NCBI RefSeq assembly: GCF_900177345.1
Contig: NZ_FWZT01000014.1
Location: forward strand, 1-64,000
Origin: Pseudobacteriovorax antillogorgiicola
GTDB lineage: Bacteria; Bdellovibrionota_B; Oligoflexia; Oligoflexales; Oligoflexaceae
DNA: 64,000 nt
Direction: 5' to 3'
The notes under the pieces were generated by a model. It saw only the letters and a program-made list of their open reading frames with translations, had not been told where the DNA came from and did not search any database. Positions 15,239 to 63,667 of this stretch are shown in pieces. A program made the position numbers and the translations under genes. Position 1 is the stretch's first letter; the number at the start of each line of letters is the position of its first letter.

Positions 15239-15350
15239 TGGGAGCAAAACCTATAAGACAAGGCTTGCTCAAAAAACTGTGGGAAGATTGTACAAATCGT
15301 CTAGAGACGATTTTTTTGAGCGTAACGAAGTGTGATAGGTTTTGCTCCCA
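15239..15350. repeat. 112-bp inverted-repeat element
   Basis: Perfect 16-bp outer arms (15239-15254 and 15335-15350), starting TGGGAGCAAAACC on the left, enclose further imperfect pairing around GCTCAAAAAA. A central 8-bp hairpin, AAATCGTC-TAGA-GACGATTT, lies at 15294-15313. It almost fills the gap between two leftward genes. It looks like a palindromic repeat unit or a double terminator rather than a promoter region. Confidence 0.6.
15294..15317 (+). terminator. Rightward terminator hairpin inside the inverted repeat
   Basis: An 8-bp stem with a TAGA loop followed on the plus strand by seven T residues. Both flanking genes read leftward, so in this orientation it would stop antisense transcription. 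On the minus strand only a three-T tract follows the stem, so it may also act weakly there. Confidence 0.5.
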
Positions 15351-56940: not shown

Positions 56941-59346
56941 ATGAATCATTTCCCCATGCATAGGATTATTGGCGGCATCATTATGCTGACTTTAGGGGTT
57001 CATTTTTTGTCGTGGTTTCTCTCCCAGTCAAGCCTCCAAGGAGTCACACTCGTTCAGGAGCCTTTGCACGCAGCGGTGGAAGTTGCTGGATCGTTGATCG
57101 CCCTTGCAGTGGGGTTGGCACTACTCTCCCGATGGGGAGAGATCTTTTCGGATTCAGGCAATACCAAACCAGTGGCTTGGGCCATGATTGCTATGGGCGT
57201 GATTGATGGTATGCACGGCGTCATTAGCCCCGGGAACAATTTTGTTTTTTTGCATAGCCTGGCTAGTTTTGTTGGTGGTTTGTTTTTTTTGAGCGTATTT
57301 TTCCCGAAGCTGATCGATCCCATTCCGCCCAAGCCGGGCCTAGCTATCCTGGGGGTTGTGCTCAGTGCAATTTTTTTATGCACTCAAACTTGGCCAGAAC
57401 TGATCCCGAGAATGCTTACGGACAGTGGCCATTTTAGCAGCAATGCGATCTTCCTGAACTGGGGAGGTGGTCTTGGGCTAGCGCTGGCTGGAGGTAAACT
57501 TCTCCGAGACTATTATCGGCAAAGATGTATCCACGATCTCCTATTTAGCCTTCATTGTCTGTCGTTTGCAGCTGCTGCAATGATGTTTGAGGCGAGCAAG
57601 CTCTGGGATGTGTCTTGGTGGGCCTGGCATATCCTGAGGTTGTTCGCCTATGGAATTGCCCTGGCGGTGCTCCTCCACGAGAAAGTTGAAAGTGATCAGT
57701 CATCTTGGCAAAGTTTGAGCCGAACGATCGCCAAACAATCGAAAAAGCTAGGCCGTGTTGCGGATAATTTAAATCTAACTCTTGAAGCTGCGAATATTGG
57801 CATCTGGGAGTTCGACCCAATCCAGCTATCGTTGCGAGGGGATGAGCGCTTTCGAGCCCTTACGGAACAAGATCAAGGAGACTCCCTGATATCTTTTACG
57901 CGGCTGAAGTCATCGATTCACCCTGACGACTACGCATCGTTAAAGAAAAAGCTTTTGTCTGTGGAATCCATCGTCGACATTGAGCTGGATGTTCGCGTTG
58001 GAAACGAGCACGAGTTTGTGCGCTACTTGAGGCTGAAAGGGAAGGTGCGTCGACATGAAGAGCGATCTGTCATACTCGGAGTCTGCTGGGAAATCACCGA
58101 TATCAAAACCCATGAGCACCGCTTGGTCCAAGCGCGGCTCGAAGCTGAAAAAGCTAAGTCTGCCGCTGAACAGGCGAGTCGAGCAAAGTCGATGTTTCTA
58201 TCGAATATGAGCCATGAAATTCGTACACCTTTAAATGGAGTGATGGGCCTATCGGAGGAGATTCTGGAAGAGACCCCGAAGGACCACCCTCACTATCAAG
58301 CGATCCATTCCATCGTCGCTAGCGGGCAGTCCTTGCTATCGATTATTAACGATATTCTCGACTACTCGAAATTAGAGGCGGGCAAAGTCGAGCTTGAGCC
58401 AGCACCGGTTGATATGCGGGATTTACTGGAAAACCTGATCAATCTTTTTAGCTCTACAGCATCCAGAAATAGTGTCAGTTTGAGTTATTCTTTGGACATG
58501 AATACGGCTGAATATCCTGTTTGCGACCGTTATCGGCTTCAGCAAGTGCTCAATAATCTCATATCCAATGCTATCAAATTTTCTCCTGGGGGGTCGGTTA
58601 GAGTCGAGGCGAAGCTTATTGTAGCCAATGATGAAACTCATGGTGGCAAGGATCGTGTGCTTGAAATTATCATTGAAGATAGTGGGATCGGTATCAATGA
58701 AGAGAACCTCCAAAAACTATTCACCCCGTTTTCACAGGCGGATATGTCCACAACAAGACGATTCGGGGGCACCGGCTTAGGGCTGTCTATCTGTAGCAGC
58801 CTCGTTCAGCTGATGGGTGGCAAGATTGATGTCGAAACTGAAATTGGCTTTGGTAGTACTTTTAAGGTGTCGCTTCCAGTGAGCATTGCTCAGCTGCGAC
58901 CCATGCGACAAAAAGCTAAGATGGACCTGGAGCTGTTAGACTCTGACCTGAAGATCTTGGTGGCTGAAGACAACAATGTCAATCAGATGGTGATAGAAAT
59001 GAGCCTTAAGTCGCTTGGATTCAGCCCAACGATTGTTGAAAACGGTCAACTCGCTTGTGCAGCAGAATCTAGATCAAATTTTGATGTGATTTTTATGGAT
59101 TGCCACATGCCGGTGATGGATGGTTTTGAGGCGACAGCAGAGATTCTAAAAGATCGAAAGGGGCGGCATACTCCACTGGTTTGTGCATTGACTGCAAGTG
59201 TTATGAAAGATGATATCGATCGCTGCCATCAATGCGGAATGGAACGGGTTTTATCAAAGCCTGTGCGGAAGCACGACCTTTATGAAGTTTTACTTCAGGC
59301 TAGCCACATTCGTGGACATTCAGATAAATTAAAGGCGAGCGCTTAA
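56941..59346 (+). CDS. Membrane-bound hybrid sensor histidine kinase
   Basis: An 801-residue protein. About seven hydrophobic spans (residues 8-240) form an integral sensor like MASE domains. A PAS-like segment follows (about 275-395, IGIWEFDPIQLSLRGDERFR). The kinase has the phospho-His in FLSNMSHEIRTPLNGVMG, N box NLISNAIKFSPGG and G boxes DSGIGI and GTGLGLSI. A C-terminal receiver (about 675-795) has Asp in DVIFMDCHMPVMDG and Lys in VLSKPV. No phosphotransfer partner is encoded nearby. Confidence 0.93.
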   Translation: MNHFPMHRIIGGIIMLTLGVHFLSWFLSQSSLQGVTLVQEPLHAAVEVAGSLIALAVGLALLSRWGEIFSDSGNTKPVAWAMIAMGVIDGMHGVISPGNNFVFLHSLASFVGGLFFLSVFFPKLIDPIPPKPGLAILGVVLSAIFLCTQTWPELIPRMLTDSGHFSSNAIFLNWGGGLGLALAGGKLLRDYYRQRCIHDLLFSLHCLSFAAAAMMFEASKLWDVSWWAWHILRLFAYGIALAVLLHEKVESDQSSWQSLSRTIAKQSKKLGRVADNLNLTLEAANIGIWEFDPIQLSLRGDERFRALTEQDQGDSLISFTRLKSSIHPDDYASLKKKLLSVESIVDIELDVRVGNEHEFVRYLRLKGKVRRHEERSVILGVCWEITDIKTHEHRLVQARLEAEKAKSAAEQASRAKSMFLSNMSHEIRTPLNGVMGLSEEILEETPKDHPHYQAIHSIVASGQSLLSIINDILDYSKLEAGKVELEPAPVDMRDLLENLINLFSSTASRNSVSLSYSLDMNTAEYPVCDRYRLQQVLNNLISNAIKFSPGGSVRVEAKLIVANDETHGGKDRVLEIIIEDSGIGINEENLQKLFTPFSQADMSTTRRFGGTGLGLSICSSLVQLMGGKIDVETEIGFGSTFKVSLPVSIAQLRPMRQKAKMDLELLDSDLKILVAEDNNVNQMVIEMSLKSLGFSPTIVENGQLACAAESRSNFDVIFMDCHMPVMDGFEATAEILKDRKGRHTPLVCALTASVMKDDIDRCHQCGMERVLSKPVRKHDLYEVLLQASHIRGHSDKLKASA

Positions 59347-59374
59347 ACATAGCAGTTTATCTTCGGCTCGGAGG

Positions 59375-59405
59375 ACATACCAGCTAAATTTTTTAGATGG
59401 TATGT
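59375..59405 (+). terminator. Hairpin after the hybrid kinase gene
   Basis: ACATACCA (59375-59382) pairs perfectly with TGGTATGT (59398-59405) around an A/T-rich loop. It follows the kinase stop codon by 29 bp, but no U-tract follows the stem. Confidence 0.35.
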
Positions 59406-59460
59406 AAGATGGAGTATTCACTAAGTCATGAGCGAGATGCCCAAGTTTGATCAATGCAAT

Positions 59461-59826
59461 CTATCCTGCTTTGGTGAAGCAGCGTTTTCTTGAAACTCGG
59501 CGATGAATCTCTAAAGCAATCACACCTTGGATGACGGTTTCGATATCAAAATCGTGGGATCTAAAACCTATGTCTTGATATAGATCGCTGCTATGAAGCC
59601 AAGACACCTGCAGTGGAATAAAAATTTGATGCTTTGCAATGGCTAACGTTACGAAGTCACCTAGCTTGAAACAAGCTTTTTTGGGAATACTGAGTTTAAT
59701 TCCGGAAGGGCAGACGTCGCGCACTTTACATGGGAAAGACTGGCTGCATACCTGAAGGCTAAGCTGTTGATCAATTGTTGCTAACGATACGAATTTACGG
59801 GCGACAGAACGTTTTTCCTCTAACAT
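59461..59826 (-). CDS. Single-domain PilZ-like protein
   Basis: A 121-residue protein consisting of one PilZ-like domain. RSVAR near the N-terminus matches RxxxR. The second motif reads DVCPSGIKL, with Cys where Ser is usual in DxSxxG, so cyclic-di-GMP affinity is uncertain. The beta-strand pattern (FVTLAIAKHQIFIPLQVSWL) fits PilZ. The ATG at 59826 follows AAGGAA. It is one of three PilZ-type proteins in the window and is convergent with the hybrid kinase gene. Confidence 0.65.
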   Translation of the reverse strand: MLEEKRSVARKFVSLATIDQQLSLQVCSQSFPCKVRDVCPSGIKLSIPKKACFKLGDFVTLAIAKHQIFIPLQVSWLHSSDLYQDIGFRSHDFDIETVIQGVIALEIHRRVSRKRCFTKAG

Positions 59827-59832
59827 AAGCAA

Positions 59833-60025
59833 GGTTCCTTATCGTAGTCCTCTAAACAAAATATGCTGCTGTCGAAACGACGTTTGCATAAAACTAGTAT
59901 CGACTCCGCCCACGAGGAGTTAGACGAAGAATTCTTTGGATCGGCGACAATTGGATTGGTGTTACGGTGAAGGTTTCTTCGTTGTGCAGTAAGGGGGCTT
60001 GGCCGTAGAGAAAGGAGTAGCAAGG
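59833..60025. other. Gap upstream of the PilZ gene, no gene recognised
   Basis: About 190 bp of the 343-bp gap between the leftward PilZ and ABC-F genes. It contains no sustained reading frame with a ribosome binding site on either strand. It must carry the PilZ gene's promoter, but I see no clear consensus. Confidence 0.4.
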
Positions 60026-60127
60026 ATGGAGCTACCCAATAATTTCAAGGAAGCTCAACCTGCCGACCTAAAACTACCAGCCAAGCAATGTAGATGTGCC
60101 TTCCAAGTTATCTTCCAAACAGGGTAG
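60026..60127 (+). CDS. Candidate 33-residue small protein
   Basis: An ATG preceded by AAGGAG at 8 nt opens a 33-codon frame (begins MELPNNFKEAQPADLKLPAK, contains CRCAF, ends FQTG). Its stop codon lies inside a terminator-like hairpin. The combination of ribosome binding site, ORF and hairpin is suggestive but the frame is short and has no known relatives to my knowledge. It could equally be chance. Confidence 0.25.
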   Translation: MELPNNFKEAQPADLKLPAKQCRCAFQVIFQTG

Positions 60128-60149
60128 AAAAATACCCTGCCACCTTTTT
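60120..60149. terminator. Hairpin between the small ORF and the ABC-F gene
   Basis: CAGGGTA (60120-60126) and TACCCTG (60133-60139) form a 7-bp stem over a GAAAAA loop. Five T residues follow 5 nt later on the plus strand; three T residues follow directly on the minus strand. It lies 37 bp past the ABC-F stop codon and probably ends that transcript. Confidence 0.5.
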
Positions 60150-60175
60150 CTTAAATCTGAAAACCTACTGCTGAC

Positions 60176-61681
60176 TTAGTCTCTGATAAGCTCAGAGCCG
60201 TCATTGACCCGCTCAATCCTAAAGAAATCTCGGCAAATTCTCTGTCTGAACGCTCTGTCATGACTCACAAGAAGAATGGCTATCGGGGCATCGGCCAATG
60301 CACTTTCAAGTCTCCGCATGGAATCCAGGTCGAGGTGGTTGGTAGGCTCGTCCAGGATCAACAGCTCTTGCTTGCTCGCAATAGCCCAGGCCGTTGCTAT
60401 TTTCCTCACTTCACCGGGAGAAAATGATGGAGTTCGAAGTAATTTCTTCGTATCAGCCCCTAAGCGAGCGAGAATGTGGATACTTTGTGTGAAAGACTCT
60501 TTTGTTTGGCCTTGCCAATTGTCGATGATCGCTTGTTGCTGATCAAGAGCTAGCTCTTGACCCAGATAGAAATATTTCTGGGTGCGAAGATTTTGAGAGG
60601 TCAAAACCCATTGGAGAAAGCTCGACTTGCCAGAGCCATTGGGGCCAGATATGGCTACCTTATCCAAACTTTTTATCGTCAGCTCTGGATTCCTCAGGAG
60701 ACGGCCGCTTGCCATCGATCCAAGGCCAGATGGCAAGTGTAAAAGTGTTCGCTGGGCCTGCTCGGGATTGTCAAAAAAGACCTTCCCTTCGAAGGATTTT
60801 TGATAGCCGATACGAGCTTTCTCGTGATGGATCTTCTCCTTGTCGCGGATTAGCTTCGATTTTTTACCCGCGAGGCTCCCGTCTTTGGCAGTGAGTTTGG
60901 CGAGGTTGATTTTCTCTTTTGTTGAGTGGTCTTTGCCATCGACAGAGCGCTTGCTCAACTTACCTTTTGATCGAGACTCTTCCTGACGAACCCTCTGCAG
61001 CTCTCGCTCTACTTTTTTTATTTTTTGCGCTGCTACCTGGGCCATGTGTTCTTGAGTGGAGGCCTGAGAATCAAGCAAATCCTGAATTTGCTGGTAGTTA
61101 CCAGCCATCAAGCCTGCTGACCCGTCCTTAAAAACAATACACTGCTGACATAATTCATTGAGCAGCAGACGATCGTGGCTAACGAGCAAGCCTAAACCCT
61201 TAAAACTTTGAAGAAGTTCTAGAAGAGCAAGCCTATTTTTTTCATCCAGGTGATTGCTCGGTTCATCGAGAAGCAGGATATCAGGTTGGAAATAGAATGC
61301 GCAGCCTAGCTGCAATCGTTTTCGTTCCCCGAAACTTAAGGCCTCAAAAGGCTGGAGTAGGATTTCGAAGAGATCAAGTTTTTCCTTGATCATCATTGCG
61401 TAGCCAGAGTAGTCCTCCTGGAAATCATCGATCCTGGGAGGAGGCGTTAGAGCTTCCTGGGGGCAGGATGTGACTAGCCCCTTGCTTTGAATGCTACCCT
61501 GGGTGGGCTGCAAAGCTCCACTAGCAATCTTTAGGAGAGTCGACTTTCCACAACCGTTGGGTCCTACAATGCCGGTCCATCCTGGTGAAAGATGACAGGA
61601 GATATCTGTAAATGTGGGATACTCTTGCTGATGGTGTGTATGGCCAATGCTAGATAGGCGCAAATATATAGTCGCAGTCAT
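60176..61681 (-). CDS. ABC-F ATPase (ribosome-associated)
   Basis: A 501-residue soluble protein with two ABC cassettes and no membrane segments. Cassette 1 has GPNGCGKSTLL (about residues 40-50), signature LSFGERKRLQLG and Walker B LLLDEPSNHLD. A charged interdomain linker (about 215-300) follows. Cassette 2 has GPNGSGKSSFL, an unusual signature FSPGEVRK and LLILDEPTNHLD. ABC-F proteins act in the ribosomal E site, as translation factors or by displacing antibiotics. Size and linker fit the antibiotic-protection type, and the leader described separately is also typical of it, but resistance is not shown. GAGG lies 6 nt before the ATG. Confidence 0.85.
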   Translation of the reverse strand: MTATIYLRLSSIGHTHHQQEYPTFTDISCHLSPGWTGIVGPNGCGKSTLLKIASGALQPTQGSIQSKGLVTSCPQEALTPPPRIDDFQEDYSGYAMMIKEKLDLFEILLQPFEALSFGERKRLQLGCAFYFQPDILLLDEPSNHLDEKNRLALLELLQSFKGLGLLVSHDRLLLNELCQQCIVFKDGSAGLMAGNYQQIQDLLDSQASTQEHMAQVAAQKIKKVERELQRVRQEESRSKGKLSKRSVDGKDHSTKEKINLAKLTAKDGSLAGKKSKLIRDKEKIHHEKARIGYQKSFEGKVFFDNPEQAQRTLLHLPSGLGSMASGRLLRNPELTIKSLDKVAISGPNGSGKSSFLQWVLTSQNLRTQKYFYLGQELALDQQQAIIDNWQGQTKESFTQSIHILARLGADTKKLLRTPSFSPGEVRKIATAWAIASKQELLILDEPTNHLDLDSMRRLESALADAPIAILLVSHDRAFRQRICRDFFRIERVNDGSELIRD

Positions 61682-61733
61682 AACTTACCTCGGTAGTCGA
61701 TTAGAGTTTGATCGAGTGGTTTGGGTAAGTTAT
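61680..61733 (-). promoter_or_regulatory. Ribosome-binding-site-sequestering hairpin in the ABC-F leader
   Basis: Perfect 10-bp inverted repeat on the mRNA: ATAACTTACC (61733 to 61724) and GGTAAGTTAT (61689 to 61680). The 3' arm covers part of the GAGG Shine-Dalgarno sequence (61691-61688) and the first two bases of the ATG. The 34-nt loop contains a nested TCGAT/ATCGA hairpin. Folding would block translation of the ABC-F gene. Confidence 0.6.
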
Positions 61734-61768
61734 TTGTTCATGGGCCCTCTACCTAGGTTAAGCAACAT
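61730..61768 (-). CDS. Candidate leader peptide of the ABC-F gene
   Basis: A 12-codon frame reading MLLNLGRGPMNK, with a second in-frame ATG that would give just MNK. The stop codon TAA (61732-61730) lies inside the 5' arm of the hairpin that hides the ABC-F start. A ribosome stalled near this stop would keep the arm from pairing and free the downstream ribosome binding site. AGTAGG (for the long version) or GAGGG (for the short one) precede the starts, both at non-ideal spacing. Function is inferred from this geometry. Confidence 0.4.
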   Translation of the reverse strand: MLLNLGRGPMNK

Positions 61769-62245
61769 TCAGCCTACTCTAAATCGGCTAAATTAGCAAG
61801 GTCCTTGAGTCCCAATTACCGGCTTCCTCCCGCTCCTATACCATTGGGTGCTAGAAATATTCCTTCCAGTAAAATTGGCCAGATAGCAACTTGCGATTGG
61901 TAAGGTTGACTGCCATAACGCTAGGCGCCGGTTGCTTTCTCTGAAATTCAATGGCATTCAACTGCCTCCTTCAAGAGTTGATTGCTGTCGCAATGTCCAT
62001 TGCACGAAGACACGAGTTAGCATGCCCTCTCCAGCACCAAAGGCTGGTGAAAATCCCGTTTCCTAGTGGAAGGCCACTTCGTATCGGTGATGTGAAGTGG
62101 TCATTCTTATCTAACCATAACCAAAATTCAGGCTATTCTACAGTCCACTTCGAAAACTTGTTTGAGAAGACCGGCCGTCACCGCTAAGATGCCTCCAAGC
62201 AAGGATGATCGTAGGCAACTGACTTAAAGTCTTTTAGGAGACACT
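61769..62245. other. Gap between the ABC-F leader and the aldehyde dehydrogenase gene
   Basis: About 475 bp with no supported gene. It includes a CCACTTC/GAAGTGG hairpin (about 62079-62101) without a U-tract, and on the minus strand TTTAGCC/GGCTGAA just before the leader peptide. Promoters for both divergent genes must be here, but none stands out. A 78-codon frame at 61951-62187 has no ribosome binding site and looks fortuitous. Confidence 0.4.
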
Positions 62246-63667
62246 ATGGAAACGGCTATAGCTAGGACGCACGACAACGATATTAAAAGTGTTTCAGGGC
62301 TTTCACTGCCCCGCATTTTGGAGTTGCAACGGTCATACTTTGAATCGGGCCGAACCCAGGAATACGGCTTTCGGATGGAACAGCTGCGCCGTTTTCAAGA
62401 TTTAGTTCAAAAATACGAACCGAAAATATTTAAGGCGCTCGAAAAAGACTTGGGCAAGGGGCGCCGAGAAGCCCTGATGACCGAGATTGGGTTGATTCGA
62501 CATGAAATCACTTATCTTCGTAAACACCTGAAGAGCCTCATGAAGGTAAAGCGCGTGGCGACACCGGTACACTTGGCTCCATCGAAGTCCTACATCAGGC
62601 CCGAACCCCTTGGACTCGTTTTAGTGATTAGTCCTTGGAACTATCCCTTCTACCTCTCCTTAGTTCCCATCATTGGGGCTCTAGCTGCGGGCAATTGTGT
62701 AGTACTCAAGCCGTCAGAGCTATCACCTTCATGCTCAGAGCTGATGGCAGAGATGCTTGCCGATATTTTTCCTGAAGAGTATGTCACCACGTTTTTGGGT
62801 GGTATCGAGGTTGGGACAAACTTGATCGATAGGCCATGGGACCACCTGTTTTTTACTGGTAGCACCCAAGTAGGAGCGTCCATAGCTGAAGTAGCTGGTC
62901 GGCATCTCACACCCCTAACCTTAGAGTTAGGTGGCAAAAGCCCCTGTATCGTTACTTCATCTGCAAAGATAGATGTTGCTGCCAAACGAATTGCCTTTGG
63001 AAAATTAACCAATGCTGGTCAGACTTGTGTAGCGCCTGACTATATTTTGGTCGATGAGCAGGTTCGAGACTCGTTCATCCCAGCTTTACAAAATGAGCTT
63101 AGCCAAGGCTTTCAAGCCGACAATCCGCAGGATACTAGCTATGGTCGGATTATTTCCGAAAGGCATTTCAATCGTCTTCTTCAAATGAAGGAACAATGTC
63201 GTGTGATCTGGGAAGGACCTGTGCGAGCTGAAGATCGGTTTATGGCACCTTGCTTGCTAGAAGCCGAATCTGATTCAGCAGTCCTAAATGAAGAGATCTT
63301 TGGCCCTTTGCTGCCTGTTGTCAGCTATCAATCTTGGGACGAAGCTATCGAATTTATCAAGAGATATCCCAAACCTCTTTCTGCCTATCTTTTCAGTGAA
63401 GATGCTTCGGATATGGAACAGTTTCAGTCTAGGCTCAGCTTTGGCGGTGGCTGTATCAACGATACTATGATTCACTTGGCTAATAATAAAATGTCATTTG
63501 GTGGAGTGGGTCCGAGTGGTATGGGTGGCTACCACGGCAAGTATTCGTTTGAAACATTCTCTCACCAAAAGCCTATCGTCCAGTCCTCAAGCCTTATTGA
63601 TCCTCCGTTTCGCTATTTGCCGTTCAGCTCGTGGAAGGAAAAAGCCTTACGATTGTTTCTGCGTTAG
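62246..63667 (+). CDS. Class 3-type aldehyde dehydrogenase
   Basis: A 473-residue NAD(P)-dependent enzyme oxidising aldehydes to acids. It carries LVISPWNYPFYLSLVPIIGAL (nucleotide and substrate site, about residues 125-145), FFTGSTQVGASIAE, the catalytic Glu in LELGGKSPCIV and the catalytic Cys in LTNAGQTCVAPDYI. The short N-terminus and ending FLR, without the class 1/2 oligomerisation extension, match the class 3/fatty-aldehyde group. GGAG lies before the ATG. Its stop overlaps that of the convergent SpoU gene by 4 bp. Confidence 0.93.
   Translation: METAIARTHDNDIKSVSGLSLPRILELQRSYFESGRTQEYGFRMEQLRRFQDLVQKYEPKIFKALEKDLGKGRREALMTEIGLIRHEITYLRKHLKSLMKVKRVATPVHLAPSKSYIRPEPLGLVLVISPWNYPFYLSLVPIIGALAAGNCVVLKPSELSPSCSELMAEMLADIFPEEYVTTFLGGIEVGTNLIDRPWDHLFFTGSTQVGASIAEVAGRHLTPLTLELGGKSPCIVTSSAKIDVAAKRIAFGKLTNAGQTCVAPDYILVDEQVRDSFIPALQNELSQGFQADNPQDTSYGRIISERHFNRLLQMKEQCRVIWEGPVRAEDRFMAPCLLEAESDSAVLNEEIFGPLLPVVSYQSWDEAIEFIKRYPKPLSAYLFSEDASDMEQFQSRLSFGGGCINDTMIHLANNKMSFGGVGPSGMGGYHGKYSFETFSHQKPIVQSSSLIDPPFRYLPFSSWKEKALRLFLR

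Follow-up and report, generated by a model that had tools for sequence, protein, structure and literature searches.

The leader of vmlR in Bacillus subtilis carries an upstream open reading frame (uORF) of three codons, MIN, replaced by MDN, MDK or MRK in relatives, and controls its gene through an intrinsic terminator, pausing and an antiterminator (PMC9226507). The uORF encodes MRI in cplR of Clostridioides difficile (generalized as MR[I/M]) and MK[L/Q] in vmlR2, and translational attenuation by sequestration of the Shine-Dalgarno (SD) sequence suffices for cplR control without a terminator (PMC10201436). The Streptomyces leaders of are5sc and tiaA, with uORFs such as MLV (are5sc), act by terminator/antiterminator control of transcription, and toeprints show ribosomes halted by lincosamide, streptogramin A and pleuromutilin antibiotics on the start codon of such 3-codon uORFs (PMC12421871). 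The ribosome-protection gene msrD is regulated by termination, through a leader peptide on which the drug stalls the ribosome (PMC10314930). The published cases of inducible uORF control of ABC-F resistance genes compared here come from Gram-positive bacteria only. In ermC-type leaders, a drug-stalled ribosome on a longer leader peptide, held by macrolide-specific arrest, controls a ribosome-protection gene.

In the window, the 64,000-nucleotide stretch of Pseudobacteriovorax antillogorgiicola DNA analysed here, an ABC-F gene and an aldehyde dehydrogenase gene diverge from a 564-bp intergenic region, and the ABC-F leader lies inside this region on the minus strand:

60176..61681, minus strand: ABC-F gene with its ATG at 61681, encoding a protein of 501 aa that has two ABC ATPase domains and, between them, a long two-helix linker
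62246-63667, plus strand: aldehyde dehydrogenase gene, divergent neighbour of the ABC-F gene
61680..61689, minus strand: 3′ arm GGTAAGTTAT, lying over part of the SD and over the first two bases (AT) of the ABC-F start codon
61687..61691, minus strand: SD of the ABC-F gene, GAGGT, read from the sequence
61697..61715, minus strand: nested loop hairpin TCGAT-9 nt-ATCGA, 5 bp, taken from the fold
61724..61733, minus strand: 5′ arm ATAACTTACC, holding the uORF stop codon
61730..61741, minus strand: 3-codon uORF ATG AAC AAA TAA (Met-Asn-Lys), the proposed sensor, read from the sequence
61745..61750, minus strand: candidate SD of the 3-codon uORF, AGAGGG, with a rather short 3-nt spacer
61730..61768, minus strand: 12-codon in-frame ORF MLLNLGRGPMNK, which shares its stop codon with the 3-codon uORF
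61749..61758 with 61696-61687, minus strand: alternative pairing of ACCTAGGTAG with CTACCGAGGT, 9/10 complementary, also covering the SD

The ABC-F start codon stands in the context TAA GTT ATG, where the in-frame TAA two codons upstream fixes its assignment. The encoded protein has two ABC ATPase domains and an ABC-F linker with no transmembrane domain; it is matched by Pfam ABC_tran, and the Pfam and NCBIfam matches span its full length. The NCBIfam model NF000355, "ribosomal protection-like ABC-F", matches with E=6e-86 and 289 bits, below its cutoff of 380, and the protein falls far under every cutoff of the named Vga, Msr, Lsa, Sal and CplR models. Because the score lies under the curated ribosomal-protection cutoff, we infer from sequence, and do not assign, a role in resistance by ribosome protection. 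The best profile matches to solved structures are VmlR2 (8buu, E=5.5e-67) and VmlR (6ha8, E=2e-59), which places VmlR among the nearest solved relatives. An AlphaFold model of low confidence (pTM only 0.38) puts the linker helices at residues 196-243 and 254-293. ABC-F paralogues from the same genome match the protein only at E=2e-20 to 2e-16, and in the tree it forms a separate clade with two homologues from the phylum, L004 and L005 (support 100/100). These comparisons identify it as a genuine ABC-F that is clearly distinct from the housekeeping (EttA/Uup-type) paralogues in its genome.

Read 5′ to 3′ on the minus strand, the leader runs AGAGGG CCC ATG AAC AAA TAA CTTACC ... 34-nt loop ... 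GAGGTAAGTT ATG. The two 10-nt arms are 100% complementary, confirming the perfect inverted repeat that an earlier, sequence-only reading of this DNA had described over the SD and AUG; the 3′ arm covers the SD in part, overlapping the GGT of GAGGT together with the AT of the ATG (61681-61679). The same reading had reported a 12-codon ORF with an internal 3-codon ORF and a nested 5-bp hairpin in the loop. Both ORFs are present and share one TAA that falls within the 5′ arm, and the minimum-energy fold of the leader consists of exactly the 10-bp stem and the nested hairpin. The footprint of a ribosome on the uORF would overlap the arm that pairs with the main SD. Pairing of GGTAG (61753-61749) with CTACC (61696-61692), also put forward there, is possible and mutually exclusive with the main stem in its extended form, ACCTAGGTAG with CTACCGAGGT. 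As an opening switch it was ruled out: the extension covers the SD as well and would therefore make a second closed form.

No terminator-like site was found on the minus strand between 61500 and 62300, so control would be purely translational. On the plus strand of the same intergenic region, a hairpin of 14 pairs with a T-rich run behind it (62072-62102) resembles a terminator in pattern. A search of Rfam returned no family match with E<=1 in 59300-63000. The ABC-F gene has no visibly strong promoter; the best candidates are weak and start at about -83 or -67.

Set beside the described systems, the locus shares with vmlR a chromosomal PLSA-type ABC-F gene, a 3-codon uORF with a nearby SD and a stem over the main SD; it differs from vmlR, with its intrinsic terminator, pausing and antiterminator (PMC9226507), in having no detected terminator and in placing the uORF stop inside the SD-hiding stem. 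With cplR it shares a 3-codon uORF and, as proposed here, translational attenuation by SD sequestration. The cplR stem, however, doubles as a terminator and comes from another phylum, and the likeness is drawn at the level of description. The leaders of Are5sc and tiaA are set apart by their terminator/antiterminator control of transcription (PMC12421871), and msrD (PMC10314930) and ermC-type leaders by longer peptides and macrolide-specific arrest, for which the window has no such motif. Met-Asn-Lys itself would fit well into the published set of 3-codon uORFs. That several ABC-F resistance genes are induced through short leader ORFs, as the sequence-only reading had noted, agrees with the published PLSA-type genes, which use the same device.

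We consider it somewhat better than an even bet, at a probability of roughly 0.58, that the leader is a PLSA-type translational attenuator without a recognisable terminator, in which the Met-Asn-Lys uORF is the likely sensor. By default, the 10-bp stem would hide the SD and AUG and hold the ABC-F protein at a low level. In drug-free cells, a ribosome on AUG AAC AAA UAA would finish at once and the stem would re-form. A drug acting at the peptidyl-transferase centre would instead freeze the ribosome at or just after initiation, the pattern of pleuromutilins, lincosamides and streptogramin A; parked there, the ribosome would cover the 5′ arm, whose start lies within the uORF stop codon. This would free the ABC-F start, and the ABC-F protein made would then clear the drug or the stalled state. 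The sequence-only reading, that the gene is induced when ribosomes slow on the leader and may protect them from a drug, is thus partly supported. The mechanism is of a known kind; the lineage and the terminator-free layout are new.

A parked ribosome has a large computed effect in the window. With a ribosome on the uORF, the cost of opening the ABC-F start site falls from 10.7 to 3.5-4.6 kcal/mol; a stall at the stop codon gives 4.6 kcal/mol, and relief this large occurs in 3% of background genes when the ribosome is parked at the same position. In the leader of the phylum homologue L005, the cost falls from 10.7 to 9.2 or 8.8, a slight relief. Among ABC-F leaders from Enterobacteriaceae plasmids, described below, it falls from 10.5 to 5.3 or 4.8 at L067 and from 18.4 to 5.0 or 4.2 at L065, the strongest computed switch among the leaders. 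By calculation, the switch model thus performs well at the window locus and at L065 but is less convincing at L005.

The foremost competing explanation is coincidence, under which the 10-bp repeat and the short ORF would stand before the ABC-F gene by accident and have no regulatory role. The repeat by itself is not special, because the window holds 15 perfect inverted repeats of at least 10 bp with loops <=60, where simulated sequence gives 1-6. Another such 10-bp repeat, with a 35-nt loop, lies at 15267-15321 in an intergenic region upstream of a minus-strand gene (15196-13913). The folding energy of the leader is ordinary (z of -0.54 and -0.74 against shuffles), and start-site pairing is equal or stronger in 31% of other genes. 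The joint anatomy, scored as a repeat of at least 9/10 over the SD together with an ATG uORF whose stop lies in the 5′ arm, is scarcer: among 305 genes sampled from the same genome it occurs at the window ABC-F alone (0/304 of the others), in none of 60 genes in G040 and in 0.22% of shuffles. Over the roughly 55 genes of the window, that shuffle rate predicts about 0.1 such coincidences. An accident of about one in ten per window calls for independent evidence, which we sought in homologous leaders.

Only two ABC-F homologues, each about 39% identical to the window protein, were found among 58 genomes of the phylum. The ABC-F gene of L005 starts with GTG at 1320, a position set by the in-frame TAG that precedes it by nine bases. 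The L005 leader differs in sequence from that of the window and has the same layout: a 3-codon uORF, ATG AAG TCT TAA (MKS), is followed by ACTACCTA, which pairs with the SD TAGGTAG. The pairing of this SD with AAACTACCTA is 9/10, and the end of the uORF falls in the AAACTACCTA arm. This layout arises in 0.10% of shuffles, and in 0.03% with a 3-codon uORF. A good promoter-like TTGACA-18-TATTTT lies upstream of the L005 uORF. The leader of L004, which belongs to the same clade as the window protein and L005, lacks the layout. A candidate 9-codon uORF there, which stops within an 8-bp arm, was discarded because it lacks an SD and because that arm ends a long way from the start codon. A strong local hairpin (1380-1500, z -2.65) encloses the L004 start codon, with start-site pairing that ranks among the top 5%, and may represent control of another kind. 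Leader ORF and start-site pairing thus recur at L005, as a layout in unrelated sequence, and this layout is absent from L004.

Searching relatives and plasmids with the leader DNA gave nothing useful, a scan of the genome collection with the window protein returned only distant ABC proteins, scans of Pseudomonadota, which had low sensitivity, were empty, and viral contigs held no homologue. The comparison was then widened to more distantly related ABC-F genes, located on plasmids and on one phage contig. Three of these, from Enterobacteriaceae plasmids, encode proteins about 30% identical to the window protein and, like it, are preceded by 3-codon uORFs, whose peptides, like MKS at L005, resemble Met-Asn-Lys:

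L065, WP_136655509.1, plasmid NZ_CP079854.1: uORF ATG AAC AAT TAA (MNN) at -52
L080, WP_094315248.1, plasmid NZ_CP044962.1: uORF ATG AAT AAG TAA (MNK) at -50
L067, WP_065813436.1, plasmid NZ_CP041104.1: uORF ATG CGC AAT TAA (MRN) at -90

The three form one clade (100/99), separate from that of the window protein. At L065 the entire uORF is folded onto the SD and AUG (z=-3.1), L067 shows moderate pairing between uORF and start site, and L080 keeps the uORF with no start-site pairing. In all, a uORF together with the pairing is found in L005, L065 and L067, the uORF only in L080, and no such combination in L004 and 12 others. Under a pairing score that was fixed after L005 and L065 had been seen, a 3-codon uORF that pairs with the ribosome-binding site occurs in 4/18 ABC-F leaders against 1/304 background genes, and 3/16 leaders pass when the window and L080 are left out (Fisher p=4e-4). 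Among the loci scored blind, L067 is the sole pass with a 3-codon uORF, and the 3-codon uORF alone is weakly enriched in ABC-F leaders (p about 0.08).

Taken as a comparison of leader sequences, these results lend moderate support to the attenuator arrangement. Coincidence is a serious rival because we infer transcription through the leader and translation of the uORF, L004 lacks the layout and the nearest homologues are 39% identical. The independent recurrence of the layout in different sequence at L005, the 3-codon uORFs across the L065/L067/L080 clade, and the fact that ABC-F genes are exactly the class known for such leaders argue against it, and we regard it as unlikely, though the best placed of the alternatives.

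It is considerably less probable that the uORF answers to another signal, with the 12-codon peptide, or a general slowing caused by amino-acid shortage or assembly stress, halting the ribosome at their common stop codon. Since the 12- and 3-codon ORFs end together, a ribosome terminating on either would cover the 5′ arm, and a stall at that codon also lowers the computed opening cost, to 4.6 kcal/mol. The 12-codon peptide also contains Arg-Gly-Pro, which resembles part of RAPP/RGPP, a ribosome arrest motif named in two reports (PMC10951233, PMC12992588). However, the peptide contains neither a +X+ macrolide motif nor a complete RGPP, and the 12-codon ORF recurs at no homologue, unlike the 3-codon uORFs. 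Of the two ORFs, the Met-Asn-Lys uORF is the better sensor candidate.

A reading of the repeat as a DNA operator for a transcription factor, and not an RNA stem, is suggested by its place in a divergent intergenic region and is the least probable of all, given that exact copies of its half-site occur nowhere else in the window or in the other DNA stretches compared and that its arms cover the start site and the stop codon of the uORF, not a recognisable promoter.

If the leader is the attenuator we propose, a minimal sensor made of three codons and a single stem also serves a distant lineage and probably pig and human enterobacterial plasmids as well, where it would identify an unnamed ABC-F gene as one for drug-induced ribosome protection. 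The leader alone would then predict the class of inducing drug. A broader and distinctly more tentative proposal, which we think doubtful on present comparisons, is that a terminator-free translational PLSA switch with the stop of a 3-codon uORF in the SD-hiding stem may be a Gram-negative ABC-F design shared between this phylum and enterobacterial plasmids; were it so, the unnamed plasmid ABC-Fs would be inducible ribosome-protection genes. L065 is represented by 83 near-identical records. Many entries for L065, L080 and L067 come from pigs; their annotation goes no further than ATP-binding protein, and no resistance-gene prediction is listed for them. A small G040 contig carries another, interrupted stretch of this ABC-F linker (L061, G040:C507:98-484), a possible second or decayed ABC-F copy.
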